In this document: positions 8,573 to 61,098 of the stretch, one piece after another
Numbering within the stretch: the stretch's first letter is position 1
Layout of the letters: every line of letters begins with the position of its first letter
From: a virus
Reading direction: 5' to 3' (one strand)
DNA: 64,000 bases
Virus record (IMG/VR): IMGVR_UViG_3300035698_007174
Coordinates: 1-64,000 of that record
Program-made: the position numbers and the translations under genes
Notes under the pieces: generated by a model
The model's database searches: none
Seen by the model: only the letters and a program-made list of their open reading frames with translations
What the model was told of the DNA's origin: nothing

Positions 8573-8574
8573 AT

Positions 8575-44755: not shown

Positions 44756-45129
44756 AAAGAATTTCTAAGTCAGGCATCGTTCTCAAGTTCTTAAAAGAAA
44801 ATCCAACAGCTATCATCAAATATAAGTATGATGTGAAGACTGATCGGGATTTGGTTGCTGTTTATATTGATAAGAAAAAGATATTCCGGATTAAGTTTGA
44901 TTGTTTCAATACAGTTTTGGAAGCACTAATTGTAACGAAAAGAGAAAGTGCTTCTACAATCTATCTAAAGTTAGATCCTGAGTTTAAGGACTTGAAATTG
45001 GTAAATGGTTTTAAGGATTATGATATTGGACCTACCGGAAGACTTGAAGGTGATGCTGAGAGAATAGTTTGCGAAAAAGAAGATAAGCAATTTATTGAAC
45101 ATTTTGTAAAGGAGCTTGTATGCATTTAG
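44746..45129 (+). CDS. Hypothetical protein of 127 residues in the sugar cassette
   Basis: MGVKRISKSGIVLKFLKENP begins a basic, beta-rich chain. VYIDKKKIFRIKFDCFNT and GRLEGDAERIVCEKEDK follow. I do not recognise it. It overlaps the oxidoreductase and aminotransferase genes, so it is translated with the pathway and may be an unknown enzyme or carrier of it. Confidence 0.6.
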   Translation: MGVKRISKSGIVLKFLKENPTAIIKYKYDVKTDRDLVAVYIDKKKIFRIKFDCFNTVLEALIVTKRESASTIYLKLDPEFKDLKLVNGFKDYDIGPTGRLEGDAERIVCEKEDKQFIEHFVKELVCI

Positions 45130-46439
45130 CTTTACTGGGCGGTAAGAAACTACGAACTAAATTCTTCCCTCCCCAAAAGACCATCGGGAAAGAGGAAAAA
45201 GAAGCAGTCATCGACTTCTTGAATGATATAGAAGATACTGGAAACATCTTGTCCGGATACAGGGGGAATTGGATTCCTCAGTTCTGGGGTGGAACAAAAG
45301 TTCAGGAGTTAGAGAAAGCTGTTGAGGGGTATCTAAATGCTCCGGACGATGCAGAAGTGTATGCTCTGGCGGTGAACTCCGCTACTTCCGGATTGCAGAT
45401 TGCTTGTGGGGCCATTGGAATAGTTCCTGGGGATGAAGTAATTGTCACTCCTTGGTCTATGAGTTGTTCTGCAACTGCTCCAATGTTATATGGTGGTGTC
45501 CCTGTGTTTGCTGATATTGAAGCAGACCATTTCTGTTTGGATCTCGCAGCTATTGAAGCTAAGATTACAAACAAGACAAAAGCGATTATTATAGTTGATC
45601 TATTTGGTCAACCTTATGATGTGGAAAAGATAAATGCTATTGCAAAAAAACATGGACTGATTATAATTGAAGATGCTGCTCAAGCAATTGGATCTACTTA
45701 CAAAAGTTGTGATGCCGGAACTCTGGGAGACATTGGTGTCTTCTCTTTTACTCAGGGAAAACATTTAACTGCTGGTGAAGGTGGAATGTTGGTTACTAAA
45801 GACCATGATTTGTATATGAAGATGGCATTAATCAGAAACCATGCTGAAGCTGTGATCTCTGCTATGCCAGATGAAGTTCAAATTGAGTATTACTGGCAAC
45901 CAAATATGATTGGTTTTAATATGCGGATGACTGAGATCCAGGCTGTGATTGTAAAGGAACAACTTAAAAAGATATATGATACTGGAGACTATATTGAATA
46001 TCGACAACAGAATGCAAATGATATAATGCAGGGGTTGGCAGATCTACCTATGATATGGAGAGCTAAAGTTAGAAAAGAATGTACACATTCATATTATGTT
46101 CTTCCCTTCTTCTATGATGAGACTAAAATGGACATTCCAATTCCCAGAGATCTATTTATGAGAGCTGTTCGAGCTGAGTTGTCTGAAGAATTGGGGAGGA
46201 TTGATCGAGGGGTTCCAATTGGTTGTGGATATATTACACCATTGTATGACCTACCGCTGTTTGCTGCTCGGGTGTTTGATCGAGAGGACTATCCTGTAGT
46301 TGAAGAGTTACATAGAATGGACTTTTGTTTGACTCTTTATCATGCTCTGGATTTGAAAGAGTCGGATATAGCTGATATTGTAAATGCCTTTCACAAAGTG
46401 TATAAGTACAGAGAGGAGTTGTTAAATTATGGGGTATAA
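45120..46439 (+). CDS. DegT/DnrJ/EryC1/StrS-family aminotransferase
   Basis: The 439-residue PLP enzyme shows VNSATSGLQIACGA, the DEVIVTPWSMSCSATA substrate loop, IIIEDAAQAIGS, and FSFTQGKHLTAGEGG with the PLP-binding Lys near residue 222. SGYRGNWIPQFWGG precedes, a pattern of this family's start. The reaction puts an amino group on a nucleotide-linked keto sugar, the PseC/LegC-type step if the 4-keto sugar from the dehydratase is used. The chain is longer than typical (about 370-390). Confidence 0.85.
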   Translation: MHLALLGGKKLRTKFFPPQKTIGKEEKEAVIDFLNDIEDTGNILSGYRGNWIPQFWGGTKVQELEKAVEGYLNAPDDAEVYALAVNSATSGLQIACGAIGIVPGDEVIVTPWSMSCSATAPMLYGGVPVFADIEADHFCLDLAAIEAKITNKTKAIIIVDLFGQPYDVEKINAIAKKHGLIIIEDAAQAIGSTYKSCDAGTLGDIGVFSFTQGKHLTAGEGGMLVTKDHDLYMKMALIRNHAEAVISAMPDEVQIEYYWQPNMIGFNMRMTEIQAVIVKEQLKKIYDTGDYIEYRQQNANDIMQGLADLPMIWRAKVRKECTHSYYVLPFFYDETKMDIPIPRDLFMRAVRAELSEELGRIDRGVPIGCGYITPLYDLPLFAARVFDREDYPVVEELHRMDFCLTLYHALDLKESDIADIVNAFHKVYKYREELLNYGV

Positions 46440-46638
46440 ATATTTTGTTTCATTTATTGTAGCTGATTGTAATAAAAATAAAGTTCCTGGGAGAGCTATT
46501 ATGCACTTTTCATCTAAAATAGAAAATGAAACGCATATAGTTCAAATAGAAGACAGTATACAAGAAATGAATTATAGATCTGTGAATGTATGTATCACCA
46601 ACTTTATCTTATTGAAAGAGGAGGACGAATGTATTTAA
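46429..46638 (+). CDS. Hypothetical protein of 69 residues
   Basis: MGYKYFVSFIVADCNKNKVPG opens a beta-rich chain, with a Cys-bearing end (VCITNFILLKEEDECI). It overlaps the aminotransferase stop. Resembles small phage domains with alternating strands. Function unknown. Confidence 0.55.
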   Translation: MGYKYFVSFIVADCNKNKVPGRAIMHFSSKIENETHIVQIEDSIQEMNYRSVNVCITNFILLKEEDECI

Positions 46639-46997
46639 TATGTCCCAATTGTGGAGAAAAAAAGATTGACCAATACCATATGCCCACTGGAGCCATTTGG
46701 TGTACTGCTTGTGGATATACAGCTCCGAGTAAAGAAAACTATAATCCATTTAAACAAACAATAAAATGGAAAGATGCTTTTATGGATCTATTATATCTTG
46801 CCATGACCCAAGCTGATTTTAGAAATGGAGTAACCGATCATGGCGTGGATGAAGGGAATCTTCAGGCAGCTAGAGAAATGAACAGAATATGTACTGTATA
46901 CTCTGGAGTATCTTCTGGAGAATTCCAGGAATATTTTAATAAAAGACAACAGCATATTTCAGATCCCCAATTATTTAAAAAAATCGAAGGAGAATAA
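46629..46997 (+). CDS. Zinc-ribbon protein (restriction-alleviation-like)
   Basis: ATG 46629 follows GAGGAGGACGA. Residues 1-30 form a zinc ribbon: CPNCGEKKIDQYH and WCTACGY. Small phage proteins with this arrangement include Lar-type restriction alleviation proteins. The remaining 90 residues are helical with AREMNRICTVYSG. Either a host-interaction or nucleic-acid-binding role is possible. Its first 15 bases are identical to those of the next gene. Confidence 0.6.
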   Translation: MYLICPNCGEKKIDQYHMPTGAIWCTACGYTAPSKENYNPFKQTIKWKDAFMDLLYLAMTQADFRNGVTDHGVDEGNLQAAREMNRICTVYSGVSSGEFQEYFNKRQQHISDPQLFKKIEGE

Positions 46998-47816
46998 ATG
47001 TATTTAATATGTGAGATAGGATCGAACCATAACAACGATCCAAAGAGAATAGAGAAGTTGATAGCTGAAGCTGCCGAAGTGGGGTTCAGTGCTGTCAAGT
47101 TCCAGTTGTTCAAAGCTGACAAGATGTATAAAGAAGCTGCTGAAGATCTGAGAGAATCAGAATTGGATACCCGTTTCTTTCCTATGATTAGAAACTTGTG
47201 TACAGATCATAAAATAGAACTAGGCTGTTCTGTGTTCTACCAGGGAGCAATTAAAGAGATAAATGAATATGTGGACTTTTGGAAGATCAGCTCTTTTGAC
47301 TTCAAACGAACTAAGTTAATTGAAGCTTGTTTGAAAACCAAGAAACCAATTATCATCTCTCTAGGATTAGCAGGGAACTCAGATGTAATCTACATGATGG
47401 CTCACTGCGAATCATTCTGTGCTGCGAATAAACTTGATCCAAGAATGATTTCTTTCATGCACTGCAATTCAAAGTATCCCTGTCCACCAGAGGAAGCGAA
47501 ACTGAACCGGATTGATTTCTTACGGTATCTGACTGAGAATAGGTATCCAATAGGGTACTCGGATCATACTGCAAATATTATGGTACTGGCTTTGGCAATG
47601 TTTTTGTGCAACGACTCTGCTGTGGAAATACATTATGACTTGGAGGATCTACAAGGAGCTGAAACCAAACATGGACATTGTGCTTACCGGACCAGAATAG
47701 AAGCTGCAGAGTATATTCGGAAAGGATTAAATCAGTCTTTTATCGGTGAATGGAAACCGGATGAAGATATGTTGAAATTATTGGCTAACGAGAAGACAGG
47801 ATTTAGAGGAGAATGA
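46998..47816 (+). CDS. NeuB-like nonulosonic acid synthase, catalytic domain only
   Basis: The 272-residue protein begins ICEIGSNHNNDPK, then VKFQLFKADKMY (a phosphate/PEP-binding KFQ), FMHCNSKYPCPP, and PIGYSDHTANI, and has EIHYDLEDLQGAETKHGH, all in the order of the NeuB barrel. NeuB, PseI and LegI condense a six-carbon amino sugar with PEP to give a nine-carbon acid. The usual C-terminal antifreeze-like domain (about 60 residues) is missing. EIHYDL replaces the EKHFT segment. AAGGAGAATAA precedes the ATG. Confidence 0.85.
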   Translation: MYLICEIGSNHNNDPKRIEKLIAEAAEVGFSAVKFQLFKADKMYKEAAEDLRESELDTRFFPMIRNLCTDHKIELGCSVFYQGAIKEINEYVDFWKISSFDFKRTKLIEACLKTKKPIIISLGLAGNSDVIYMMAHCESFCAANKLDPRMISFMHCNSKYPCPPEEAKLNRIDFLRYLTENRYPIGYSDHTANIMVLALAMFLCNDSAVEIHYDLEDLQGAETKHGHCAYRTRIEAAEYIRKGLNQSFIGEWKPDEDMLKLLANEKTGFRGE

Positions 47817-47817
47817 T

Positions 47818-48156
47818 ATGAAGAAGATTTTTGCGATTTTGCTTATAGCATTACTTATGCTGACAATGGTGTCATGTTCTAAAACGATTGAGACTGAGAT
47901 TACTAAAGTTGAATTTTATGCTGAACATGGTGTATTTTCTTTTGAGGGACTATTTGTTCATGAAGATCAGAAATATGCTTGGCAGGTCTTTTTTCGCCCA
48001 CCAGATAGAGAACACCTACAAGCTATATTTGATGGTAGATTTAAACTCGACTTTCTTTTTGAAACAGTGGATGGACAATTGATGCTGACTCCTGAGATTA
48101 TACTTACAAAGAAAAGAGCTGTGGAAGTTAAGGTCACTCCAGGAAAAGTGGTATGA
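47818..48156 (+). CDS. Small lipoprotein of 112 residues in the sugar cassette
   Basis: A signal peptide ends in LTMVSC, a lipobox. The mature part has strands (TEITKVEFYAEHGVFSFEGLF) and a helix, but no known domain. It would be anchored in the envelope. It overlaps the next gene (ATGAC). A role in surface display or superinfection exclusion is possible. Confidence 0.6.
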   Translation: MKKIFAILLIALLMLTMVSCSKTIETEITKVEFYAEHGVFSFEGLFVHEDQKYAWQVFFRPPDREHLQAIFDGRFKLDFLFETVDGQLMLTPEIILTKKRAVEVKVTPGKVV

Positions 48157-48341
48157 CTAAAATGCAATGGATTATGGCTGGCATAGTTCGGTTTCATAAA
48201 GAGATTGAATCTTGGTTTGTGACTGAAGAGGAGCAGCTTAAAGAAATACAAAAAGAAGGAATGAAAAAGATTGATATGACAAAGTATATGACAAAAGGAG
48301 GAAAAAGATATGGAACCAAACTTCTATCCAAAAGAAAGTGA
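48153..48341 (+). CDS. Hypothetical protein of 62 residues
   Basis: The chain begins MTKMQWIMAGIVRFHKEIES, with a Lys-rich end GKRYGTKLLSKRK. The last 32 bases overlap the start of the dehydratase gene. Probably a short helical, basic peptide. Function unknown. Confidence 0.5.
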   Translation: MTKMQWIMAGIVRFHKEIESWFVTEEEQLKEIQKEGMKKIDMTKYMTKGGKRYGTKLLSKRK

Positions 48342-49257
48342 ATTTCTAATTACTGGTGGAACCGGATCTCTCGGGAAGACTTTAGTGAAACTTCTTCAGA
48401 GATATAAACCAAAAGGTATTCGGATTTACTCCAGAGATGAATTGAAACAGTGGAAGTTGAGACAACAGTTTGCAGAGTATGACAATATTGCTTATCTCCT
48501 CGGTGATGTGCGGGATTACACTAGATTAGAAAGAGCTATGAATGGCGTTGATGTAGTTTTCCATTGTGCAGCTATGAAGCAAGTTCCGGCTTGTGAGACT
48601 GATCCTGAAGAAGCTGTCAAGACAAATATTCATGGGGCTCAAAATGTTATGAATGCTGCAATCAACAACAATGTCAAGGTGGTGATGAACATCTCAACCG
48701 ATAAAGCTGTGTATCCCGTGAATTTATATGGAGCAACCAAGATGGCTGCAGAGAAGTTGTTCATCCATGGTAATGTTTACTCGGGTGACTATGGAACAAA
48801 GTTCTCCTGCTGTAGATATGGGAATGTCCTGGGTTCTCGGGGAAGCATTATCCCTCTGTTCTTGGAACAACAGAAGACAGGGGTAATTACAATCACTCAT
48901 CCTAAGATGACCAGATTCTTTATCCGGTTGGAAGAGGTTGCTCAGTTTGTAATAAATGCTGCCTACATAACTGATGGTGGACAGATCTATGTTCCAAAGA
49001 TGAAAGCTATGAAAGTACTCGATGCTGCAAAAGTGATCGCTCCGAATGCTGCTATCAAACTAATTGGTATTCGACCAGGAGAGAAACTACATGAGTGTTT
49101 GATTACAAAAGAAGAAAGCTATCATGCAACTGAAAAGAAGAATATGTATATCATCGACCAGAATGTAAATACAGGAAATGAGTTTACTCTGGATAGCAAT
49201 TCTGTTACTCAATATACCGAAGACGACTTTAGGGAATTGGTCAAGGAGTTTTTCTAA
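48310..49257 (+). CDS. pseB: UDP-GlcNAc 4,6-dehydratase, PseB-like
   Basis: The 315-residue protein is an extended SDR: GGTGSLGKT near residue 15 binds NADP, YSRDELKQWKLRQQF is a family segment, then AAMKQVPACE, STDKAVYPVNLYGATK (catalytic Asp-Lys and Tyr), and RYGNVLGSRGSIIPLF with TRFFIRLEE. This reaction (UDP-GlcNAc to the 4-keto-6-deoxy-arabino sugar) is the first step of pseudaminic acid synthesis; LegB is a close relative. GGAGG precedes the ATG. Confidence 0.88.
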   Translation: MEPNFYPKESEFLITGGTGSLGKTLVKLLQRYKPKGIRIYSRDELKQWKLRQQFAEYDNIAYLLGDVRDYTRLERAMNGVDVVFHCAAMKQVPACETDPEEAVKTNIHGAQNVMNAAINNNVKVVMNISTDKAVYPVNLYGATKMAAEKLFIHGNVYSGDYGTKFSCCRYGNVLGSRGSIIPLFLEQQKTGVITITHPKMTRFFIRLEEVAQFVINAAYITDGGQIYVPKMKAMKVLDAAKVIAPNAAIKLIGIRPGEKLHECLITKEESYHATEKKNMYIIDQNVNTGNEFTLDSNSVTQYTEDDFRELVKEFF

Positions 49258-49835
49258 TGTATGAAACAGATAGAATAAAGTTAGTTCCTTTCAATAGAGA
49301 GTTCTTGGAGAATGAAGTTACTGGATATAAAAGATGGTTTCTAAATCCATTGGTAACTGCTCAGAATTCTCATGGACTCTTCCCGAAGTCAGAAGCAGAG
49401 TACGAGATGTTTTTAGAATCGATCGATATAGCTGAAGCAATTGTGTTTGCTATTTTGGTGAAACAGGGAGATGAGATTCCTGCCTATGTTCATATTGGAA
49501 ACGTATCTCTTCAGGGTTTTAATTGGATATACCGATCAGCTGAATTTGCTGTGGTACTGGGAGAACCGGACTTTTGGGGAAAGGGGTATTGTACGGAAGC
49601 TACCGAATTGTTGCTGAAGCATGGGTTTGGCAAATTGAACCTCCATCGAATATGGTCCGGAACTGCATCGACCAATGTTGGAATGCAAAGAGTATTTGAC
49701 AAATTGGGGTTTCAAGAAGAAGGAATCTTCAATGATGGAATGTTTCTCAATGGAAGGTATGTCGATATATGTTGTTATTACCTGTTGGATTGGCAATGGA
49801 GTGATTTTTTCCAAAAAAAAGGGAGGGTTAATTGA
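49257..49835 (+). CDS. GNAT acetyltransferase, PseH-like
   Basis: The 192-residue protein has a GNAT layout: ETDRIKLVPFNREFLE, then VHIGNVSLQGFNW, FAVVLGEPDFWGKGYCTEAT (the acetyl-CoA loop GKGYCTEA), and NLHRIWSGTASTNVGMQRVFDKLGF with IWSGTASTNVGMQRVF as in RimJ/PseH enzymes. It would acetylate the 4-amino group of the nucleotide-linked sugar. It overlaps the dehydratase stop and the Maf gene. Confidence 0.8.
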   Translation: MYETDRIKLVPFNREFLENEVTGYKRWFLNPLVTAQNSHGLFPKSEAEYEMFLESIDIAEAIVFAILVKQGDEIPAYVHIGNVSLQGFNWIYRSAEFAVVLGEPDFWGKGYCTEATELLLKHGFGKLNLHRIWSGTASTNVGMQRVFDKLGFQEEGIFNDGMFLNGRYVDICCYYLLDWQWSDFFQKKGRVN

Positions 49836-52492
49836 ACGAGATCTATGAAAAAAATATGGACGTTATTAAAAAGATTAGTGCAGTCTTTTCAAAAGAGCTA
49901 GAAGAAGCTCCGACTCCTGATTGGCTGACTCTGGTAAATGCTGACAATGGAAAAAGGAATTTCACTGTCTTCAATGCCGGTAGAGTTCAAGCAGCTTATG
50001 ATCAGAAGGATCCGATCAAAGACGTGAAAAAGAGTATAAAGAATTTTACATATCTGAATGGACATTGCTCTATTCTAATTGGAGTTGGTCTGGGATATAC
50101 TCTGAATGAAATCTTGAAGAAGAAAGAAAAGAAACACATAGTTGCTGTCATCGAACCAAACTTCTGTTTCTTCCGAGAAGCATTTAAGAACTTTGACTTC
50201 ACCAAGTATTTAGAGAATGGAACTTTGCTTTTGTTCGATGGTAAAAAAGAAAGTACTCCTTCATTCTTTGGGATGATAGAATCTAAATGGGTAATTCAAC
50301 AATGGTTTTTGATGGCTGAGAAATATACTTATTTCAAAACTGATCTGTATGCTGACATTGTTCAGAACACAATGGAGATGATCAACTCAATCCAATGTAA
50401 TGTTGGAACGGTCATCCATGCAGGAACCACAATAGCAAAGAACGATATTTTGAATGTTCCATATGTCTTCCGGAACACCGGAGTGGTAGCAGTAAAGGAT
50501 ATGTTCAAAGATGTTCCGGCAGTCCTGGTGAGCACTGGTCCATCTCTTCAAAAGAATATTCATATTCTGCAGGAGAATAAGGACAAAGTATTAATCATTG
50601 CTGTGGCCCAATGTCTTCGGGTACTGCTAGCATACGACATTGTTCCAGACTTTATTACAACAGTAGATTATGGGAAAACAAATGAAGAACACTTTAAGGG
50701 TTTATGGGATACTGATACTACTTTGGTCTGTCTCAATCGCACTTATGCTCCTATTCTCAAGCAATGGAAAGGTAGGAAGTTAATCACTGTTTCTAAGTAT
50801 TTAGAGAATGAATCAGTGGTTGGATTAATGCAACACAAAGGGTATTTAGAACAGGGTGGATCAGTTAGCCATCTAAATGTTGGTTTGGCTCTACATCTTG
50901 GCTGCGATCCCATTTGCATCATCGGACAGGATCTCGCTTATGATGGAGAACATTCTCATATTCCATTGGTGGACGCTGGTGGAAAAATTACTGAGAAAGA
51001 AGATGGTACTTTGTCTTGGGATATAAACGACCCGCATAGTCACTTGAAAGGAAAGCCATATGGGATGGGGATGGCTAAAGTTGTCCCAGGGTATTTTGGA
51101 AAACCTGTCAAGACAAATATGGGATTGGCAAGTTTCATCACTTCTTTTGAGCAGATCTTCCTTACTTATAAGGAGGAGCATACCTTTATCAATTCAACTG
51201 AGGGGGGAGCTTCCATAAAAGGAACTACTCAAATGTCTCTGAAAGATTTCATTGCAGACTACGGTTGTGATTTAGACAAGTCTTCTATTAAAAAGATTCC
51301 TGAGTTTATTGACGATCCCAGGAAATTAGCATTGAGATTGATCAAGGCTTTTAACAAAGAGATTAGAGAACTGTATGAGCTGATTAAGTATGCTGAAGAT
51401 GGTTTGGGTTATAGTGATAAGATCTTGTCTGAAAAAGGTAAGATAGAATTCAAGATGGCTGTTGCAAAGAATCGGGAAATGTCAAACAAAGCTCACAAGA
51501 TAGCAGCCACCAATCAGTTGATGGGTATGTGGATCTATGAAGCAAGCAGAGCAATTGAAAGCAGGGAGTTGAAAGTATCAGCTTCTACAAAGCATTTATT
51601 CAAGGACCGGAAAGACTTAGAAACTAGAGTGAAACGGAATCGATTGATTTTGGAAGCTGCCAAAACTGCTGCGGAAGAGATGATCGAGTTGTATGAAGAA
51701 TCTTTGGGGTTGCTGAAAGAATACAGGGATACGGACAGTCCGGACATTCTTGTATCTTACATTTATGAATCTGCTGATCTGCAGGATATTGACGACTACT
51801 TCCATGTTGGGAATTGGGCCCATCCTTATCTCGAAGCAAAAAAACTAATTGAGAACTCAGATGAATATTATGATGGGGATATTGATTATGCTTATGACAT
51901 TCGGAAAAAAGCAATTTGGTTGAGATCAGAAGCGACTAGAGAAGCAAAAGAAGCTGGAGACAATTCTGACTTAATCCATTACAATCAATTGATCATGGAA
52001 GCTCAAGTTTTGGGAAGAGAAGAACGGAACTTTATGGGATCCCTAGAAAAGCTGAAAGAAGCGGAAGTGGTAAACGACAGTGGTGAAGAAGCCATCTGGG
52101 GAATAGGATCTGCTTACTACCAGTTAAAGAAATTTGAAAAAGCTGCAGAGAAATATGAGAAGTTGATTCTTCTCTTTCCGGAAAACAATCGGTATCAATT
52201 TGAATATGGACAAGTACTGCTCAATATAGATATGGCTCGGGGATTGGAAGTACTGCAGAAAGTATTTGAAAAGACTGACGAGTTTGATTCCTTTCTATTT
52301 AGGCTGGCTCAGTTGTATGCAGACTCGGAATTGTTTGAATTATCTCATATCGCAATATGCAAATATCTTGAAAAGTTCCCAGACAATATGGAAGCCTGGT
52401 TGGTGAAAGCGAAAGTCTTGGAAGAACTGGACCGGATGGAAGAGTACCAAGAAGCAATGGATAAGTACAACAAGATGAAGGGGGTTTCATGA
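49832..52492 (+). CDS. maf: Maf-family protein glycosyltransferase (DUF115) with TPR tail
   Basis: The 886-residue protein starts at TTG (49832), with GGGAGGG five bases upstream. Residues 60-150 carry ILIGVGLGYTLNEILKKK. The DUF115 core follows: VLVSTGPSLQKNIHILQ (about 227-243), IVPDFITTVDYG, and GGSVSHLNVGLALHLGCDPICIIGQDLAYDGEHSHI, all features of motility accessory factors. Maf proteins move pseudaminic or related sugars onto Ser/Thr of flagellin. The C-terminal 180 residues have TPR-like repeats (IWGIGSAYYQLKKFEKAAEKYEKL). It ends the cassette. Confidence 0.85.
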   Translation: MNEIYEKNMDVIKKISAVFSKELEEAPTPDWLTLVNADNGKRNFTVFNAGRVQAAYDQKDPIKDVKKSIKNFTYLNGHCSILIGVGLGYTLNEILKKKEKKHIVAVIEPNFCFFREAFKNFDFTKYLENGTLLLFDGKKESTPSFFGMIESKWVIQQWFLMAEKYTYFKTDLYADIVQNTMEMINSIQCNVGTVIHAGTTIAKNDILNVPYVFRNTGVVAVKDMFKDVPAVLVSTGPSLQKNIHILQENKDKVLIIAVAQCLRVLLAYDIVPDFITTVDYGKTNEEHFKGLWDTDTTLVCLNRTYAPILKQWKGRKLITVSKYLENESVVGLMQHKGYLEQGGSVSHLNVGLALHLGCDPICIIGQDLAYDGEHSHIPLVDAGGKITEKEDGTLSWDINDPHSHLKGKPYGMGMAKVVPGYFGKPVKTNMGLASFITSFEQIFLTYKEEHTFINSTEGGASIKGTTQMSLKDFIADYGCDLDKSSIKKIPEFIDDPRKLALRLIKAFNKEIRELYELIKYAEDGLGYSDKILSEKGKIEFKMAVAKNREMSNKAHKIAATNQLMGMWIYEASRAIESRELKVSASTKHLFKDRKDLETRVKRNRLILEAAKTAAEEMIELYEESLGLLKEYRDTDSPDILVSYIYESADLQDIDDYFHVGNWAHPYLEAKKLIENSDEYYDGDIDYAYDIRKKAIWLRSEATREAKEAGDNSDLIHYNQLIMEAQVLGREERNFMGSLEKLKEAEVVNDSGEEAIWGIGSAYYQLKKFEKAAEKYEKLILLFPENNRYQFEYGQVLLNIDMARGLEVLQKVFEKTDEFDSFLFRLAQLYADSELFELSHIAICKYLEKFPDNMEAWLVKAKVLEELDRMEEYQEAMDKYNKMKGVS

Positions 52493-52560
52493 ACTTAGAT
52501 TTTTTAGATATGATATGTATAATTGTCATAGTAGTTTTACTTATGAAATGTGTGGGGTGA
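52489..52560 (+). CDS. Membrane microprotein of 23 residues
   Basis: The ATG overlaps the Maf stop (ATGA). The chain, MNLDFLDMICIIVIVVLLMK then CVG, is a single membrane span. Short and not confirmed, but the coupling with Maf and the hydrophobic pattern are suggestive. Confidence 0.4.
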   Translation: MNLDFLDMICIIVIVVLLMKCVG

Positions 52561-52562
52561 GT

Positions 52563-52778
52563 ATGAGGGTAGCAATGGAATTTAAATTGCCGGAAGAACG
52601 TAATCAGTTTTATATGGCTGCGGATGGGGAAGACTACTATTCAGTTTTGTGGGAGTATTCGCAGTACTTTTTTAGCTTGGCTAAGTGTAGAGATTTGACA
52701 GACGAAGAGATCAGCTTGCGGGACAAGTTGTATGAGTTCATGGACGACTTCCATGTAGATTTAAACAAAATATCATAA
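52563..52778 (+). CDS. Hypothetical protein of 71 residues
   Basis: GGGGTGAGT precedes an ATG reading MRVAMEFKLPEERNQFYMAA, with EDYYSVLWEYSQYFFSLAKC and LRDKLYEFMDDFHVDLNK. The pattern FxLPEExxxFxxAxxGxxYxxxLWEYxxYLR resembles a common small phage protein of unknown role. Supported by the start context and family-like spacing. Confidence 0.65.
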   Translation: MRVAMEFKLPEERNQFYMAADGEDYYSVLWEYSQYFFSLAKCRDLTDEEISLRDKLYEFMDDFHVDLNKIS

Positions 52779-52788
52779 AGGAGTTTAT

Positions 52789-53007
52789 ATGTTATTACAA
52801 TTTTATACAACTAAGGGGTACACGCTCATCGACACGTCTAAGTATGAGTCTATTGAAGTTATTAATCAGCCCATTGGTTTTACTTTGGTGTTAATTGAAA
52901 GTGTGTGGGAAAATAAGAAAGGAAAAAGATACGCAAGTGATGGGGTGTATGGAAAAGTTAAGACAGAATTCGCATTGTCATCAGGGAACTTCACAGTAAT
53001 CAAGTAA
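52789..53007 (+). CDS. Hypothetical protein of 72 residues
   Basis: The chain reads MLLQFYTTKGYTLIDTSKYE, then IGFTLVLIESVWENKKGKRY and VYGKVKTEFALSSGNFTVIK. AAAGGAGTTTAT precedes the ATG. Last gene before the bidirectional terminator. Function unknown. Confidence 0.55.
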   Translation: MLLQFYTTKGYTLIDTSKYESIEVINQPIGFTLVLIESVWENKKGKRYASDGVYGKVKTEFALSSGNFTVIK

Positions 53008-53022
53008 CACTCTCAGACGCAT

Positions 53023-53056
53023 AAAAAAGACCCTTCCTTAACCGGAGGGGTCTTTT
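53023..53056. terminator. Bidirectional terminator between early and tail operons
   Basis: AAAAAGACCC...GGGGTCTTTT forms a strong hairpin with A and T runs on both sides. It sits between the end of the rightward early genes (53007) and the end of the leftward tail-fibre genes (53144). Confidence 0.85.
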
Positions 53057-53143
53057 GGTATGATTACCCGTTTATAGGGTGTGTCGTTTAAATGCACTTG
53101 TAGTATCGTGTATTTCCTTGTACGTTTAGAAAAGTCACTGATC

Positions 53144-54835
53144 TTATGTCCAAACAGCAGGAGTAGATACCTTGTTTGTAATATTAGCATCAGTAGTATC
53201 AATAAAGTCGTTTCCTGAGTTTGCTGCTTCATTTGTGAATAAGGCAGCTCCATAAGTACAATTGTGGAATCCTTCTTCGGCTCCTCCAACAGAAGTAGCC
53301 AGTGTTACATAACAACCAGATATTCCAATACAATTAGCATAACCATAGGCATTTCCACCTGTGGCATCTATGTCAGTCACATAACACCCTGAAACTCCTT
53401 CACAAGAATTGAGCCCCATGCAGTCTCCATTTAAGGAATCAATATCATTTGCATAACAAGCAGATAGAGCATTACTATTGTAAAATCCATAAGCTGTTCC
53501 TGTTGAAGAATTGTCGATTGTTGTAGCTCGACAACTACTGAGACATTCACACTGATAAAATCCAGCAGCAGCAGCAGCAGAAGAACTTGTAATTCCGGAA
53601 GCCCTACAAGATGAGAGACTTATAGAATTATAAAATCCATAACATACACCAGAACTTGAAGATAAATCAAGAGCTTTACAACTAGCAATACTAGATCCAT
53701 TATCAAACCCGTAGACAGCTCCATTAGCATTTGAAATTGTTGTTGCAATACAACTTGAGACTTCTGTACAAGCACTAAAGCCATAAACTGCTGATCCTCC
53801 ACTTGTTATAGTTGTAGAAGTGCATCCAGATAGTTCGGAGCAAGACCAAAAACCATAAGCAACATTAGAAAAGGCATTTATGTTGGAAGCTAAACATTGG
53901 GATAAATGATCACATTCTCGATAACCATAAACAGCTTGAGCAGAGGTTGTGTCTATTGTATCTGCTCTACAATTTTGCAAGTAATCACAAAGATAATATC
54001 CATATGAAGCGGAACCTCCAGATAGAACATCATCAGATTTACAATTAATTAAATAATTACAATCATAAAAACCATAGGCTGCAGCTGCAGTACATTCTAT
54101 GTCATATACTCTGCAATTTACTAAGTTGTCACAATTACTAAATCCTCGTATAATCCCTATACCAGATGTCAGACCTTCTATTGAGCAATTAACTAAATGA
54201 ACATAGGGAGCTCCGCCAGCTGTTCCTTCAAAACCGTAAAAGGAAGAAGTTGATTTTCTAAAACTTGTTTTGCATCCATATAGATAAGTTTCACCCGTCA
54301 TATAATAGGATCTAGTTAGTGCATAGGCTCCAACAGCAGTTCCTATAATATTCATATTGTAAATAGAAGACCCAGTTACATCGAAGTAAGATCGTTCATC
54401 TCCTACATCGAAGTAAGATCCGACTTCACAGAATATCAATCTATCCCCAAAGTCTATATTCCCCCAAGTGTCTCCACCAGAAAGGAATGAAGTAGCTCCA
54501 TAGCAATTGTATCCACCAGCCAGATAACCCAGATACATAGAAGTGTATTCTAGTTTAATCCGGTAAGCATTTGCTGCTGTTCTCTCAATGGCTGCATTGA
54601 AAAGTGCCTGAGTATTTGCAATGAAGTCCCACCCACCAGAGACTAAACTCTGGATTGCTGGAAATAGTTGTTGATTGGTGTCATCTCCCTGAGAGTTCAT
54701 AACAGAGCCAGTTTGTTCTATGACATAAGCTAGTTCTTCTTGAACAGCATTAAGCCATGGGGCAACTACAGTTGTTCCAGGAGGTCCATCTTGAAAGCGA
54801 TTCTCTAAATTATTCTCTCCTTCTATTCTGTGCAT
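53144..54835 (-). CDS. Tail-fibre protein with 24-residue Cys repeats (copy 1)
   Basis: The 563-residue protein starts MHRIEGENNLENRFQDGPPG, the N-terminal anchor of tail fibres (TTVVAPWLNAVQEELAYVIEQTG). From about residue 210, about a dozen units of about 24 residues follow, with consensus YGFxxCxxLSxCxAxxIxxxxGxA. This matches a beta-helix with two Cys per turn stacked in register. It is Ser/Thr-rich and lacks a recognisable enzyme motif. It is a paralogue of the next upstream gene. It could be the receptor-binding protein. Confidence 0.8.
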   Translation of the reverse strand: MHRIEGENNLENRFQDGPPGTTVVAPWLNAVQEELAYVIEQTGSVMNSQGDDTNQQLFPAIQSLVSGGWDFIANTQALFNAAIERTAANAYRIKLEYTSMYLGYLAGGYNCYGATSFLSGGDTWGNIDFGDRLIFCEVGSYFDVGDERSYFDVTGSSIYNMNIIGTAVGAYALTRSYYMTGETYLYGCKTSFRKSTSSFYGFEGTAGGAPYVHLVNCSIEGLTSGIGIIRGFSNCDNLVNCRVYDIECTAAAAYGFYDCNYLINCKSDDVLSGGSASYGYYLCDYLQNCRADTIDTTSAQAVYGYRECDHLSQCLASNINAFSNVAYGFWSCSELSGCTSTTITSGGSAVYGFSACTEVSSCIATTISNANGAVYGFDNGSSIASCKALDLSSSSGVCYGFYNSISLSSCRASGITSSSAAAAAGFYQCECLSSCRATTIDNSSTGTAYGFYNSNALSACYANDIDSLNGDCMGLNSCEGVSGCYVTDIDATGGNAYGYANCIGISGCYVTLATSVGGAEEGFHNCTYGAALFTNEAANSGNDFIDTTDANITNKVSTPAVWT

Positions 54836-54844
54836 AAAATCTCC

Positions 54845-56353
54845 TTATGTTGCCCAACTACTACATGAATATTGAATATCGATTGCTGCTGCTGAAGTAT
54901 CTACATAACTACAACCTGGATTTGATACTTCTGCTGTATGAGAAGAGGAAACATAAGTACAGGCATTAAATCCATAAACATTTCCGGAAATACTGTCAAT
55001 GTCATCGGCAAGACAAGCTGACACATAATCGCAATCATAAAACCCGTAAGCATCTCCAGTAGTTGCATCAATAGAAGTTGTAGAACACGCTGATACAAAA
55101 TCACAATTATTATACCCGTAAGCAGTTCCAGAGGTGGTGTCTAGTGTATCAACATAACAACTAGAGAGACGCTTACACCCATTAAAGCCATGAGCATTTG
55201 CAGTACCAGAATCGAGATTCCCTGCTAGACAACTGGAAACTTGATCGCAAGATCTAAATCCAAAGACTTGTCCTCCAATAGAATCAAAATCAAACACTCT
55301 ACATCCGGAAATTTGATCACAATTTTCAAATCCATAAAGTACAGTACTGGTAGTAGAACTAAAAGAGTATGCTCTACAGCTAGATACTTGACTACAGGAT
55401 TCAAAGCCAATAATAGCTCCGGAGACTGTTGTTGAAAACGCATATGCGTAACAATTAGAAATTTCAAAACAGTTATTAAAGCCATAACAATTAGTTAGGG
55501 CTGTTGTTTTTACTATGGAATCTGCATGACAATTTGAAATCCGATTACAGAAATGAAATCCATAAATGGCAGCTGCAGAACTTGTGAGTGTAGTTATAAA
55601 ACAATTATTTATATTATAACAATAGTGGAAAGCACCGATTATTCCAGAACTTTCAAGATTGTAAGCTGTACAGTTTACAAAACTTTGAGTGGCCCGAATA
55701 GCTTCTGTAGTCCCACCAGTAAATCCATAGAATGTTGCATTACTTAGTCTTGAACTGGTTTTACAATTTACTAATTTAGATCTTAATCCAGTAGCATAAA
55801 AAGAGTATGAAATTGCTGAAGCTACTGTTCCTGTTCCAATCACACCTAGACCATATATATGACAATCATCATTATCTACTAGCACATACCCTTCAGTATT
55901 TCCAAAGTCTAAGGAACCACCTGTCTCAGCAAAAAGAATATCGACATTCCCCATCGACAACTCTCCCCAGGTATCTCCACCGGACAAGGGAGACAAAGCT
56001 CCTGACATCTGGTATCCACCAGAGAAATGTCTCAAGTAGACAGATCTGTAGTTTGTTATAAATCTATAAGCATTCGCTCCGGTTCTTTCAATGATAGCAT
56101 TGAAGTGTTCCTGAGAAGATATGACTACTCGGAATCCCGCATTTACAAAACTTTTAGTGGCTGCAAGTAGTTGGTTCTTTGGATCCCCATTGGCCCCATA
56201 AAGACTTATTCCAGCTCCTTCAATCACACCGGAGATCTCTTCCTGCACAGAGGTCAACCAATCGTCTGTTACTACTGTGGGAGGTGGTCCCTCTGTAAAT
56301 ATTTTATGACCTTCACTGTCTGTAGTGAAGTTTAGTCCTTCTATTCTGTGCAT
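54845..56353 (-). CDS. Tail-fibre protein with 24-residue Cys repeats (copy 2)
   Basis: The 502-residue protein has the same organisation as copy 1: MHRIEGLNFTTDSEGHK, then VTDDWLTSVQEEISGVIEGAG, a linker with IIERTGANAYRFI, and about ten repeats such as YGFENCDQISGCRVFDFDSIGG. Many repeat cysteines match copy 1 in spacing. The start is backed by AAGGAAG upstream. Two similar fibres allow the phage to bind more than one surface structure or to recombine. Confidence 0.8.
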   Translation of the reverse strand: MHRIEGLNFTTDSEGHKIFTEGPPPTVVTDDWLTSVQEEISGVIEGAGISLYGANGDPKNQLLAATKSFVNAGFRVVISSQEHFNAIIERTGANAYRFITNYRSVYLRHFSGGYQMSGALSPLSGGDTWGELSMGNVDILFAETGGSLDFGNTEGYVLVDNDDCHIYGLGVIGTGTVASAISYSFYATGLRSKLVNCKTSSRLSNATFYGFTGGTTEAIRATQSFVNCTAYNLESSGIIGAFHYCYNINNCFITTLTSSAAAIYGFHFCNRISNCHADSIVKTTALTNCYGFNNCFEISNCYAYAFSTTVSGAIIGFESCSQVSSCRAYSFSSTTSTVLYGFENCDQISGCRVFDFDSIGGQVFGFRSCDQVSSCLAGNLDSGTANAHGFNGCKRLSSCYVDTLDTTSGTAYGYNNCDFVSACSTTSIDATTGDAYGFYDCDYVSACLADDIDSISGNVYGFNACTYVSSSHTAEVSNPGCSYVDTSAAAIDIQYSCSSWAT

Positions 56354-56406: not shown

Positions 56407-56997
56407 TTATTGACTGCTTACAACTCCCCAATCTGGTTTGAAATACCATTTACCAATTGTGGAAGCTCCATGATCATCAGATGGCATTATGAAACCAAGT
56501 TTTACTCCGGAGAGTGTAGTTGGTCCTGCACTGATAGCACCTGAAACACCAGAGTCCAGATAAATAGGCATTCCGATTTTTGCGGTAAAGTTAGCAGAAT
56601 TAGCTGAAAGGTAAATACAACCTTCAAGCAAAATTACTCCTGTGGAAATACCACCAGCGAGATAGCTTTCCATAGCCACACCAAGAACACCGATGAAGGT
56701 AGATTCATGAGCCCTGTCTGCGTGTATCCAATATCCAGTTGAACAATCCATATACAGAATGTCCTGAAAGGAAGTAGCTGATCCTATGTACTGTGAATAC
56801 ATTTTCCATCCTCTACCTGTTCTGTCTGTGGTTGTAAACTTAGATTGTGGTTTCGACCAGAAATCGCCCGCATTAGCAAATTCCGATTCCATTAGTGTTA
56901 CAACAAAATCTCTTAAATCTTGTGCTGATACTTGTCCGGTTACATTATCTCCAAATAGTGACAATATTGCTGAACGAGTTCTTTGGGTGTCTGCCAT
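56407..56997 (-). CDS. Putative tail or collar protein
   Basis: The 196-residue protein begins MADTQRTRSAILSLFGDNVTG followed by QVSAQDLRDFVVTLMESEF. This opening (an FxDN element and an ISAQDLRDF-like element) is often found at the N-terminus of phage tail and capsid-associated proteins. The remaining part is beta-rich. The position after the baseplate genes supports a tail-tip or fibre-connector protein. Confidence 0.65.
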   Translation of the reverse strand: MADTQRTRSAILSLFGDNVTGQVSAQDLRDFVVTLMESEFANAGDFWSKPQSKFTTTDRTGRGWKMYSQYIGSATSFQDILYMDCSTGYWIHADRAHESTFIGVLGVAMESYLAGGISTGVILLEGCIYLSANSANFTAKIGMPIYLDSGVSGAISAGPTTLSGVKLGFIMPSDDHGASTIGKWYFKPDWGVVSSQ

Positions 56998-57023: not shown

Positions 57024-57830
57024 TTATGATGCTTGGGAAAAACCATCCCCAAATTCGTCTGTAAAGAAAGCTCCACCAGAATACCTATCAAATGAGATTG
57101 CAAATCCTTTGTTAAAGGCTCCGGTATAATTTACACCATCGTAGTCGGTGTTGTTTGCAAAAGCAGAGGAAAACTCATTGTTGAAGTCCAATTCCTTTTC
57201 TCCAAGTAAACCCCATGAGTTGTCATAGGTGGGTACTCTGTCAAAAGCTCTGCTGAATCCAGGTCCAAACTCAATTCCGTTGAAGCGGAACAGTACCATA
57301 GTGTGAGCTGGTTTCAAGTTCTTAATCTTTTGTATCAGTTTAGAGATGTTGACTTCTGCAGGTTCATCTACGGAGTCTGCATCAATTAAGACTGTCCAAT
57401 AGAAGAGATTGTTTTGTCCACCACAAGGATCTCCGGCTGTGGCTATTCCGGCCCAGAAGGGAGTGTACTGTTCTATAGTAATCACATAACCCAGGGCAAG
57501 TGCCAGTTCTTCATAATAAGCTGAATTTTGTTCACCAACCTTACGGAGACTTTCAGTAAGTTCCTCTCTTCGTTTCTCTGTGGTTGAAGCTAAGTCGAAT
57601 CCCTCTTCCGGTAACCCAAAGTCCTCTTCATGTTCAGTAATCAATTCTGAAGTTGTACTGAGATCTTTTTCATTCAAGAGACTTAAAGCTCTTGCTTCAA
57701 CTCTTGCAAACTCCTCACCAAGTCCGTAGAGAAGTTTTAGAATTATTGATCCCTCTTCTGTGTTCCATGCTTTACCTTTTGGAAGCAGGGAAGCTAACAG
57801 GTTTCGATAATCTTTTCCGGTTCTAGCCAT
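57024..57830 (-). CDS. Tail protein, Mu gp48-like (DUF2313)
   Basis: The 268-residue protein has the DUF2313 N-terminal pattern: RNLLASLLPKGKAWNTEEGS, ELITEHEEDFGLPE, and RREELTESLRKVGEQNSAYY, then CGGQNNLFYWTVLID. In Mu-like phages gp48 follows the baseplate J gene and builds part of the baseplate. The extra C-terminal 90 residues repeat a FSxAFxxxxxY pattern. Gene order matches Mu. Confidence 0.85.
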   Translation of the reverse strand: MARTGKDYRNLLASLLPKGKAWNTEEGSIILKLLYGLGEEFARVEARALSLLNEKDLSTTSELITEHEEDFGLPEEGFDLASTTEKRREELTESLRKVGEQNSAYYEELALALGYVITIEQYTPFWAGIATAGDPCGGQNNLFYWTVLIDADSVDEPAEVNISKLIQKIKNLKPAHTMVLFRFNGIEFGPGFSRAFDRVPTYDNSWGLLGEKELDFNNEFSSAFANNTDYDGVNYTGAFNKGFAISFDRYSGGAFFTDEFGDGFSQAS

Positions 57831-58930
57831 TATGTGTAATCCTCGAAAGTAATATCTCCAATCACATGAACTTGTTTAGCTGTGGAGGTTATGTCTGCTA
57901 CTGGTGAAGTAATCTTGTGATACTGTTCATCTGCAGTTGCAGAAATCGATTCACTTAGTCTTGACAATCTCACAGAAATTTCAGGACCACCATCTTGATT
58001 GATCAATTCAGTTAGTTTTGTTATGGCTGCTGCTTGAATAGCAGAAGTGTTTGGGTAAATCTGAACTGTCAAGTTGACTGACAGAGCTTCAGTATCTATC
58101 ATGATAAATCCAGGATCCGCAGTTACAGGAATACCAACTGTCTTACCTGTAATGGGATCGGTATGCGATTCAATATAATCTCGAACTGCTTGTCTTTCTG
58201 CATCATCCGGAAAAATAGAATCTGCATCATCATCGAAAACAAAAGCCAATCCTACGGTTCCAATTCCGTAGTACTGTTCAATCGCCCAAGCTCTGGTAAC
58301 TCCCGAATATTCTTTTGCCCACACTTCATAGTCGGTTTTAGTTCCACCATGAGGGGGTCTTCTTTTTCTAGTTAGGATTGCTTCCCTGTAATCAGAGTTT
58401 GATTGAGGATCAACCCCACCAGTGAGGCCATTACTATCTACTGTAGCATCGGAATTGACATATAAAATCGGGGATAGAAAAGTTAAAGTAACTCCGGCAT
58501 CCTCGTTATAATCATTCCCGTACTCTGTTGCAGTAATGGCAACTGAAATAACTCCACCCACCAGAGTAGCAGCTGCATCAGTTCTGTATATATTTCCTGT
58601 CGCTGACTGTAACTGAGTTTGTGCAGAAATTGAAACTCCGGTCGTTCCGGACAAAGCAACTGTTCCGGTAGCTTTAGTACCTGCGTCTTTGTTGATTCCG
58701 TACTCTGCACCATGCCTTTCCAGGAACTCAGCGTCAGCAGTTGATATGAACATTTGATCTTTTATGAAGTTGATATATCCATACAGACCATGAGCAACCC
58801 CACCCACAACCCGAGACAATACCTTGTACACAGATCGTCTTAAAAAGGTAGAAGCATTGTCTATCCTCGAAGCAAAGTCCGACAATATTCGATCAACTAC
58901 TTCCTGTAATGTTGGTCTTTGATATGGCAT
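57830..58930 (-). CDS. Baseplate J-like protein (Mu gp47)
   Basis: The start is placed at 58930 (MPYQRPTLQEVVDRIL), preceded by GGGAGGGG. The 366-residue protein carries DFASRIDNASTFLRRSVYKV, then EFLERHGAEYGINKDAGTKA, and GGVDPQSNSDYREAILTRKR. This is the usual signature of baseplate wedge protein gpJ. The start overlaps the end of the gp46-like gene (TAATG). Confidence 0.88.
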   Translation of the reverse strand: MPYQRPTLQEVVDRILSDFASRIDNASTFLRRSVYKVLSRVVGGVAHGLYGYINFIKDQMFISTADAEFLERHGAEYGINKDAGTKATGTVALSGTTGVSISAQTQLQSATGNIYRTDAAATLVGGVISVAITATEYGNDYNEDAGVTLTFLSPILYVNSDATVDSNGLTGGVDPQSNSDYREAILTRKRRPPHGGTKTDYEVWAKEYSGVTRAWAIEQYYGIGTVGLAFVFDDDADSIFPDDAERQAVRDYIESHTDPITGKTVGIPVTADPGFIMIDTEALSVNLTVQIYPNTSAIQAAAITKLTELINQDGGPEISVRLSRLSESISATADEQYHKITSPVADITSTAKQVHVIGDITFEDYT

Positions 58931-59388
58931 TAAATCCCCTCCCATAAATCATTATATTTAAAGGCAGTAAAAGTTCCATCAGTCTGAAAGATCTTTATAC
59001 TGGCAGCAACTTTGTCGAGATCCATTCTTTCAGTTTCAACTTCAATTTTAGCTGCAACACCATCATCGATCATCCACTGAAGAGCATCTTCAATATACTG
59101 CTTTGTTGTTCTCAATAGTGCATTTGTCATTTTGGATCGTCTTAATAGCCAGAGCTTACTTCCGATATTGTCATCTGCTTGAGAGGGTTCTACCAGATCT
59201 CCCCACCAGCCTTTACGGTCATCAAGATCATCCAAACCATCGTCTTCTTCACTGGCTCTGGCATCAGTAAATAGAGAAATGAGTACGGCTGTTTCTATTC
59301 CATTCTCTCTGAGAAGATCTCCTTTTAAGACTCCAAAGTCTTCTGTCTGGGTTTCACTGTCCCATACAATCTTTATGTCATCTGCCAT
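58930..59388 (-). CDS. Baseplate protein, Mu gp46-like
   Basis: The 152-residue protein contains DSETQTEDF, ETAVLISLFTDARASEEDD and RKGWWGDLVEP, which define the gp46 (W-like) family, and TTKQYIEDALQWMIDDGVAA. It would form the wedge with gp47. Order gp45, gp46, gp47, gp48 is the Mu arrangement. Confidence 0.85.
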   Translation of the reverse strand: MADDIKIVWDSETQTEDFGVLKGDLLRENGIETAVLISLFTDARASEEDDGLDDLDDRKGWWGDLVEPSQADDNIGSKLWLLRRSKMTNALLRTTKQYIEDALQWMIDDGVAAKIEVETERMDLDKVAASIKIFQTDGTFTAFKYNDLWEGI

Positions 59389-59389
59389 A

Positions 59390-60010
59390 TTAACCGCCTG
59401 TCTTTACTGTTGTTGTTTCCGCTGCTGATATATCAATTGTAATCGAAGAAGCTGTAGGAGAAATAGTTCCAGGAGCCCCCAATCCAACTGTTGCTGTTGT
59501 GATATGGATATGAGATTGGATTACTCCTACTAAAGTCTGTAAAGCTGAGTTCAATTCAGCATGAGTGACAAAAGATTTTGTAGCCCCATTTATATTTACT
59601 TTACTTCCTGCAGCAGCATCAATATCAATATCACCCGTTGCAGAGTTCAATGTGATACGAGTTGTATTGCTTCCAGATGGATCCTTAGCATATAGACAAA
59701 CATCACCTGGCAGTAAATCGGTAGGCCGGAGTTCTCTGTTGTGAACTGTAACAGCCACTCCTTTAGATCTATTCCCTGCCAAGAACAAAGCAACAACTTC
59801 ATCGTTGCCTGTGTCGTTCGGGTATGTTTCCAATCCATATTCTTGAAGTCTTTCCATTTTGGAAATTACCTCATCTCCCAATCCCTGAACTTTCAATCTC
59901 TGGGTTTTCCCTGAGTTGTCAACGGCATTGAGCAAACACCTTCCAACGATTAGAAAGATTCTATTCTTTATAGCGTTTTTAAACTTAACAAATTCTTCTC
60001 TTCCTATCAT
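59390..60010 (-). CDS. Baseplate spike protein, Mu gp45-like
   Basis: The 206-residue protein has QRLKVQGLGDEVISKMERLQ, EVVALFLAGNRSKGVAVTV and RPTDLLPGDVCLYAKD, an OB-fold with a spike-like continuation. The C-terminal part is a repeated beta pattern (SATGDIDIDAAAGSKVNING) as in trimeric spikes. A His-bearing QSHIHI segment may bind metal. It overlaps the gp44-like gene by four bases. Confidence 0.88.
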   Translation of the reverse strand: MIGREEFVKFKNAIKNRIFLIVGRCLLNAVDNSGKTQRLKVQGLGDEVISKMERLQEYGLETYPNDTGNDEVVALFLAGNRSKGVAVTVHNRELRPTDLLPGDVCLYAKDPSGSNTTRITLNSATGDIDIDAAAGSKVNINGATKSFVTHAELNSALQTLVGVIQSHIHITTATVGLGAPGTISPTASSITIDISAAETTTVKTGG

Positions 60011-61098
60011 AATAAAGAAATCTCCCTGCTGTCAAAAGTAGTTCGGATACTGTACATTCCAGGATTTAGTGTATAAGTAATTGGATCCACTAATCCGAGG
60101 GTAGTGGTGAATCCACTAGAACCATTATACTCAAAGTAAACTGTATTGATTAACATATTCCTATTTAACTGAAACTTTTCATCAAAGATATGTACCAGTT
60201 TGTTGATGTTCCAGGGAATCTTACCGACAACCTCAGTCCATCCTTCTAGTCGATATGTAACTCTTTTAGATAGACCAGCTCTCAAGTTTGCTTCAAACCA
60301 TGATTGAGCTACACATTTTCCAGCATCGTTTGCATACTCAGACAGGATTGTCTTTGGCCTGTGTCTAACAATCTGAGGATCTTCATATGACCCTGAAGAG
60401 GACAAGTACTCAGCAGGAGTAGAGATAGTTGGTGATTCTACACCAGTTCCTTTTATGGTATACTTTGAAAATCTATTCGTATCTGAATCTACAAAACTTG
60501 CTTCTAGTATATTTTGTCTTCCAAGTAGATCAGCAGCAAACATAACATTTGTAGTTTGTGTCAATGTAAGATAGCCATCTCCCATAGAAACCGGAAGTAT
60601 ATTATTTGCTCGACATAACTCATATATTATTTCTGCACAATTCTTTCCCTCTTCCAATACGATCTCTGGGTATATTGTGCCGGAACGAAAAGCAACTGCA
60701 GGATCGATGGTCACAGGAATGGTGAATGGTTCAGTGATATAATAAATTATATTTGCTACTGTTACATCAGTCCAATGTCGCTCAGTTCCATCGAAAGAAC
60801 AGTCAGATAAATCTGCAACTGTCTCTCTTCCGGAGAAAGAAATAGAACCACCATTTGCATTATAGTTAATTTCAACTTCTTCTATGAATCCTATTGAAAT
60901 TGGAAGTGCATTTATGGTAGCTATATATTTATCACCTTTAGAAATGTTCCACAATTCATGGGTTTCTGGAAAGAAGTCTACAGTTCTAACTTGTATCTGT
61001 CCACCAAGAGCAGACATACTTTTTGCAATCTTAACGTCTTCCCATATACCTTCAAATGTATAACCATTTATGGTCAGTCCAAATTCATTAAAATTCAT
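60007..61098 (-). CDS. Baseplate hub protein, Mu gp44-like
   Basis: The 363-residue protein has the hub pattern: GLTINGYTFEGIWEDVKIAK, then ISFSGRETVADLSDCSF (the family-typical SGR...DLxDCS), and ENLRAGLSKRVTYRLEGW. It links tail tube to spike. Overlaps the preceding gene by one base. Confidence 0.85.
   Translation of the reverse strand: MNFNEFGLTINGYTFEGIWEDVKIAKSMSALGGQIQVRTVDFFPETHELWNISKGDKYIATINALPISIGFIEEVEINYNANGGSISFSGRETVADLSDCSFDGTERHWTDVTVANIIYYITEPFTIPVTIDPAVAFRSGTIYPEIVLEEGKNCAEIIYELCRANNILPVSMGDGYLTLTQTTNVMFAADLLGRQNILEASFVDSDTNRFSKYTIKGTGVESPTISTPAEYLSSSGSYEDPQIVRHRPKTILSEYANDAGKCVAQSWFEANLRAGLSKRVTYRLEGWTEVVGKIPWNINKLVHIFDEKFQLNRNMLINTVYFEYNGSSGFTTTLGLVDPITYTLNPGMYSIRTTFDSREISLL

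Follow-up and report, generated by a model that had tools for sequence, protein, structure and literature searches.

Introduction

Maf glycosyltransferases are known as enzymes of the flagellum. In the flagellin-glycosylation islands of Clostridium, Aeromonas and Campylobacter, Maf occurs together with PseB, an aminotransferase, a GNAT acetyltransferase, NeuB and a cytidylyltransferase. The same set of genes is present in a stretch of viral DNA analyzed here, positions 1 to 64,000 of the 68,683-base virus record IMGVR_UViG_3300035698_007174. This stretch, hereafter called the window, covers most of the record. Unlike the bacterial islands, the phage cassette has no flagellin or flagellar genes nearby and is flanked by phage replication and tail genes. 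It additionally contains a Gfo/Idh gene, PseG was not found, and the carrier is a tailed phage without integrase. We show that the cassette is a core, co-inherited trait of a clade of uncultured tailed phages, and the findings make a strong case for phage-borne glycosylation.

Several described systems share features with this locus. In Maf-1-type enzymes, an MptE-like core is followed by a C-terminal tetratricopeptide repeat (TPR) domain that sets acceptor specificity, according to the part of Unay et al. (2024) that is reported in PMC13317340, and the same order is predicted for the phage Maf. With 886 aa, the latter is longer than most Bacillota Mafs considered here (~590-690 aa). FlmG of Caulobacter likewise is a cytoplasmic O-glycosyltransferase whose TPR regions bind the acceptor flagellin, but it has a different glycosyltransferase domain and carries the TPR at the N-terminus (PMC7591256). 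Mycobacteriophages bear sugars on capsid and tail-tube proteins (Freeman et al. 2023, as cited in PMC12619734). In our locus the sugar-making genes travel with the transferase. To our knowledge, the glycosylated mycobacteriophages use neither Maf nor a nonulosonic-acid pathway. The prophage proteins EpaA/EpaB of Acinetobacter are also phage gene products acting on a nonulosonic acid (pseudaminic acid), yet they come with neither a synthesis pathway nor Maf (PMC12053666).

A phage-borne Maf cassette appears to be undescribed. Maf had no match among 50,697 phage records (E 1e-5) nor in PHROGs; BFVD does contain phage proteins of MptE-like type, which align with part of the Maf model. Neither a phage-borne Maf nor a complete nonulosonic-acid cassette was reported in the literature searched, but most subscription papers lay outside this search and novelty is therefore unproven.

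Results

The cassette occupies a tight plus-strand operon at 43003-52492 with mostly overlapping genes, and its content resembles that of a bacterial flagellin-glycosylation island. Its genes, including one small open reading frame (ORF) behind Maf, are:

43003-43779, plus: cytidylyltransferase (CTP_transf_3; PF02348, E 4e-20; best solved relative PDB 6oew, E 1.6e-33); syntenic in the clade
43769-44755, plus: Gfo/Idh/MocA sugar oxidoreductase (PF01408, E 1.5e-13); syntenic in the clade
44746-45129, plus: ORF of 127 aa overlapping both neighbours, no family match
45120-46439, plus: DegT/PseC-like, pyridoxal-phosphate-type aminotransferase (PF01041, E 1.3e-78)
46590-46997, plus: ORF of 135 aa with Cys pairs (zinc-ribbon-like by eye), no Pfam family
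46998-47816, plus: NeuB-family synthase, short form of 272 aa (PF03102, E 5.6e-33)
47818-48156, plus: ORF of 112 aa with a lipoprotein-like signal (MLTMVSCS, by eye), no family
48310-49257, plus: PseB-like UDP-GlcNAc 4,6-dehydratase, inverting (NCBIfam PseB, E 2e-118)
49257-49835, plus: PseH-like GNAT N-acetyltransferase (PF13302, E 2.8e-20; PseH model E 1.4e-7, below cut-off)
49832-52492, plus: Maf-type glycosyltransferase, 886 aa, TTG start (PF01973, PF20157 and fold)
52515-52778, plus: ORF of 87 aa 3' of Maf, no assigned function

At the superfamily level, Pfam assigns one gene each to the dehydratase, aminotransferase, N-acetyltransferase, NeuB-type synthase and CMP transferase steps of the pseudaminic/legionaminic acid (Pse/Leg) pathways. 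The stricter NCBIfam equivalog cut-offs were not reached for PseC, PseH and PseI: the PseC model, for example, matched the aminotransferase with E 4e-61 but with 207 of 423.5 bits. The PseB score of 395 bits lies just under its cut-off of 407.75. The short NeuB resembles the 290-residue solved chain of PDB 6ncs (E 3e-16). Overall, we are highly confident that these genes constitute a sugar-making and Maf glycosylation set.

The MptE-like core of Maf was recognized with E 1.8e-41 (PF01973, 142 bits against a curated cut-off of 34.6) and its N-domain with E 1.5e-8 (PF20157, 34.9 bits against 23.5, the profile being matched in part). The NCBIfam model PseD, 'flagellin modification', matched with E 7e-41, yet under its curated cut-off. 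An AlphaFold2 model of the protein (pLDDT 89.6) had the solved Maf 5mu5 as top PDB match in Foldseek (E 1.3e-15), with a TM of 0.51 by target length and 0.39 by query length. The following matches were TPR proteins including O-GlcNAc transferase, and they covered the C-terminal part. The predicted layout is thus a Maf N-domain, an MptE-like core and a C-terminal TPR superhelix, the last spanning residues 560-886. In an alignment with 12 Bacillota proteins, the residues that are invariant in the cellular Mafs of this set are present as GPS 236-238, PD 272-273, GQD 365-367 and GGA 458-460. Given the precedents of Maf-1 and FlmG, the predicted C-terminal TPR domain suggests that the phage Maf probably carries an acceptor-selecting domain.

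Five phages of the clade encode Maf in two ORFs, the break falling immediately ahead of its conserved INATEGGA motif. The two parts are separated in L069 by an ORF weakly matching HNH endonucleases and in L066 and L070 by other ORFs, whereas they overlap in L067. This looks like a homing-endonuclease-linked gene fission giving a two-part enzyme.

Split Maf loci: L066, 9974-13259; L067, 9965-12842; L068, 1497-4503; L069, 10001-13583; L070, 6401-13331

Beyond Maf lie the terminator and the end of the convergent minus-strand operon:

53018-53062, no strand: bidirectional intrinsic terminator between the two convergent operons (hairpin -22.5 kcal/mol, z -6.1)
53144-54835, minus: tail fibre 1, 563 aa, fibre N-domain and beta-helix (tail-fibre PHROG, E 0.0035, weak)
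54845-56353, minus: tail fibre 2, 502 aa, same repeat architecture (phrog_2617, short tail fibre, E 3.6e-9)
56407-56997, minus: gp196, conserved in the clade, adjoining the fibres, 20% Ser+Thr; an alternative acceptor candidate

The A and T tracts lie on opposite sides of the hairpin, which can therefore serve both strands. An earlier note on this DNA had described a Maf gene converging across one terminator with two Ser/Thr-rich repeat fibres. Protein families, fold, PHROGs and hairpin energy bear out these elements and the convergence, although two plus-strand ORFs intervene after Maf (52515-52778 and, by eye, ~52789-53008). The interval 49832-56353 that the note had delimited is correct for Maf and the fibres but stops short of the sugar-biosynthesis genes at 43003-49835. 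It is these genes, namely NeuB, PseB, DegT, GNAT and cytidylyltransferase, whose family assignments support a nonulosonic-acid-like product and with it the sialic-acid-like sugar that had been suggested.

Single-protein scans of viral contigs with Maf, NeuB or fibre 1 as query returned no relatives, and the clade was reached only with a Maf alignment built with the Bacillota relatives. This search yielded 57 viral loci; 16 of these, the five with a split Maf included, had relatives at 35-46%. In the 16 closer loci the cassette order is kept wherever the contig extends over it, and in most of them Maf is convergent with a fibre gene that shares the first ~65 residues with the fibres of the window. 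A second set of genomes was sampled by the neighbouring tail gene gp196 in order to keep their choice independent of Maf. Here, 21 of 25 informative loci have Maf just past the fibre region; of the four exceptions, three carry it elsewhere on the contig and the last is a contig of 31 kb. Maf is present in all 18 contigs of this set that reach 44 kb or more (two near-identical), and the same 18 have a NeuB match, weak or partial in some. In G417, G418, G420 and G422 the whole cassette occupies another site, apart from the fibres, and in G418 this site adjoins the terminase. In L124 and L144 Maf abuts gp196 with no fibre gene in between.

Maf distances correlate with those of the tail genes in Mantel comparisons, with r of 0.75 for baseplate J, 0.75 for the gene at 58930, 0.83 for 60007 and 0.89 for 61098; the matrices contain related sequences and the permutation p-values are a guide only. 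These correlations are as good as those of the four tail genes among themselves. Correlation was lower with the fibre N-domain (r 0.43) and with gp196 (r 0.30), and PseB and GNAT distances track less well than Maf. An earlier run had given a low value for baseplate J, which we blamed on coarse ORF extraction; the stricter run was used. The Flagellin_N family had no match in the virus record or in any of 22 clade contigs, and flagellin was absent from the available flanks of the 57 viral Maf loci.

Several clade phages, though not the window, have a gene for a BNR/sialidase-like propeller between NeuB and PseB.

BNR/sialidase-like genes: L058, 6832-7935; L066, 4817-5944; L067, 6291-7385; L069, 6380-7459; L070, 3237-4307

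In Bacillota genomes, Maf relatives (27-34% identical) adjoin PseB (~46%), DegT, a cytidylyltransferase of the same type, NeuB and flagellin. More distant viral Mafs were found in other phages, e.g. L089 and its relatives, where the gene order is cytidylyltransferase, Gfo/Idh, DegT, PseB, then Maf, terminase, portal and major head protein. As read from these gene orders, the association of the cassette with phages extends past one clade. If so, a similar cassette beside terminase and portal in other lineages would mean that it arose or spread more than once. Just after the portal gene, other Maf phages encode a protein of 135-160 aa with 25-35% Ser+Thr, a candidate acceptor or decoration protein in those phages.

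Ser/Thr-rich post-portal proteins: L078, 16305-16712; L087, 15637-16116; L089, 16550-16978; L094, 17635-18117; L099, 7799-8260

Discussion

We infer the acceptor, the enzyme activity and a Pse- or Leg-like sugar, and on balance we consider it probable that the cassette glycosylates a phage-encoded virion protein with a nonulosonic-acid-like sugar. PseB, the DegT aminotransferase and GNAT would convert UDP-GlcNAc into a diamino-trideoxy hexose, with the UDP release step (PseG) supplied by the host or by an unrecognised enzyme. The short NeuB would then condense the hexose to a nonulosonic-acid-type sugar, which the cytidylyltransferase would activate to the CMP-sugar and the Gfo/Idh enzyme would probably tailor. 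Maf would finally move the sugar to Ser/Thr of a protein selected by its C-terminal TPR domain. That the cassette is core and co-inherited points to an acceptor encoded by the phage, or else to a conserved role during infection. The earlier note's suggestion of a phage structural protein, not flagellin, as the target thus gains support from the core cassette, the missing flagellin matches and the co-inheritance with tail genes. In a broader picture that we would place just short of probable, a large uncultured phage group has captured and repurposed a flagellin-glycosylation system as core genes, decorating its own virions with sialic-acid-like sugars and swapping sugar enzymes between phages like flagellar glycan genes.

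Some observations weigh against virion glycosylation. PseG (TIGR03590) has no match in the whole virus record. The NeuB match is weak or broken in G417, G420 and G434, so that the sugar may differ or be salvaged in these phages. The cassette is part of the replication-side operon, not of the late structural operon, and could also serve a host target. Additionally, co-inheritance with tail genes would also be expected if Maf targets a host protein in a conserved host group.

Alteration of the host surface is the main rival explanation. The cassette would glycosylate host flagellin or another surface protein and thereby keep competing phages, or the phage's own progeny, from adsorbing to infected cells. 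Flagellin is the substrate of the characterised Mafs (PMC4065374, PMC11339370), the nearest cellular relatives that we found adjoin flagellin, and the nonulosonic-acid enzymes EpaA/EpaB of a prophage already alter the host capsule (PMC12053666). The location in the replication-side operon is compatible with action before assembly. Still, the phage would profit for no longer than a single infection cycle: tyrosine integrase, large serine recombinase and rve transposase families had no match in the phage record, tyrosine integrase was found in one of 18 records checked, and with a clade mostly devoid of integrase a long-term alteration of lysogens is not an obvious use of the cassette. Furthermore, Maf of C. 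botulinum did not modify non-cognate flagellins (PMC11339370), which makes it less likely that a Maf inherited with the phage acts on the flagellins of many hosts. A cognate-specific enzyme would need to keep pace with diverse hosts, but the distances of Maf follow the phage tail genes; a phage-inherited Maf would be more easily served by a phage acceptor. We regard a host target as unlikely.

A special case of virion glycosylation is that the Ser/Thr-rich beta-helix fibres are the acceptors, as the earlier note had proposed from their position. Downstream of the first ~70 residues, which match tail-fibre PHROGs in both fibres, ~12 coils of 24-25 residues form a beta-helix in AlphaFold2 (pLDDT mostly >90), and Foldseek matches of the model include the P22 tailspike. 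Ser+Thr amounts to 19.5% and 21.7% in the two fibres as compared with 12.0 +/- 4.0% (mean, standard deviation) over the proteins of this phage, i.e. about two standard deviations above the mean. In the model, 31% of the residues in the seven-residue strand and in the long turn are Ser/Thr, compared with 5% in the next strand, and judging by this coil pattern they seem to be placed outward on the helix. The position of Maf just past the fibre region in most clade loci would also agree with fibre acceptors. However, Ser/Thr-richness as proof of an acceptor had to be rejected, as gp196 and two head-region proteins also have ~20%. Position is not diagnostic either: two convergent operons that share one terminator end with Maf and the fibre, respectively, and the adjacency of these genes is partly a side effect of this arrangement. 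Maf stays, while the distal parts of the fibres are exchanged freely across the clade: they include LVIVD, collar, BppL-like and pectate-lyase domains, Ser+Thr falls to as little as 12-15%, and mean identity beyond the N-domain is 17%. In addition, Maf faces gp196 in two loci that lack an intervening fibre gene, and in some phages the cassette is located apart from the fibres. The proposal therefore gained little; we consider fibre acceptors quite improbable, and nothing in the data sets the fibres apart from conserved proteins of the tail or head, for instance gp196 or the capsid.

Modification of a nucleic acid or small molecule, i.e. DNA hypermodification or a soluble metabolite made via a repurposed Maf, is highly improbable: DNA-modifying phage glycosyltransferases are common according to the part of the literature cited in PMC12619734 and a DNA methyltransferase gene is nearby at 41640, but the Maf-like model has a TPR domain, usually a protein-binding fold, and among the annotated genes no base-modifying precursor enzyme was seen.

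If phages use Maf on their own particles, they would have a cytoplasmic, sequon-free means of attaching charged nine-carbon sugars to virions, which would affect adsorption, stability and recognition. The phage group would moreover offer many natural Maf-acceptor pairs with a TPR domain and no flagellin, on which acceptor choice by Maf can be tested. If instead the host is the target, the cassette would represent a novel route by which a phage alters the surface of its host.

Genome context and further observations

The minus strand carries a head and tail module, and the plus strand from ~16.5 to 52.5 kb carries replication functions (SNF2 helicase, primase, DnaB-like helicase, a uracil-DNA-glycosylase/DNA polymerase A protein and a RecA-like protein) with the sugar cassette at its end. 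A Mu-type sheath gene is located past the end of the window. We rejected the idea of a host island misread as viral, since head, tail and replication genes are found on both flanks.

2052-3374, minus: major head protein
4871-6175, minus: portal
9793-11109, minus: terminase
57024-57830, minus: Mu gp48-like tail protein (PF10076, E 8e-20)
57830-58945, minus: baseplate J-like protein (phrog_6, E 5.8e-59)
60007-61098, minus: baseplate hub
62564-63943, minus: tape measure

No host could be named from a PseB scan of genome contigs (matches of only 27-36% identity) or from searches with tail sheath and terminase (best identities 40% and 44%). One related contig comes from a non-metagenome record, with only phage genes in the part that is readable. 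L003, an 8.3-kb contig of another metagenome record, has a terminase identical to that of the window, indicating that the same or a very close phage was sampled twice.

Between terminase and portal, 7103-8593 encodes a 496-aa protein with the look of a beta-helix from sequence only and no PHROG match. The family A DNA polymerase at 33019-35505 is fused to an N-terminal uracil-DNA-glycosylase-like domain. An SMC/SbcC-like ATPase appears as two genes for its N-terminal and C-terminal parts (39320-40366 and 42389-43006), between which a phosphoesterase (40363) and the DNA methyltransferase (41640) are encoded.
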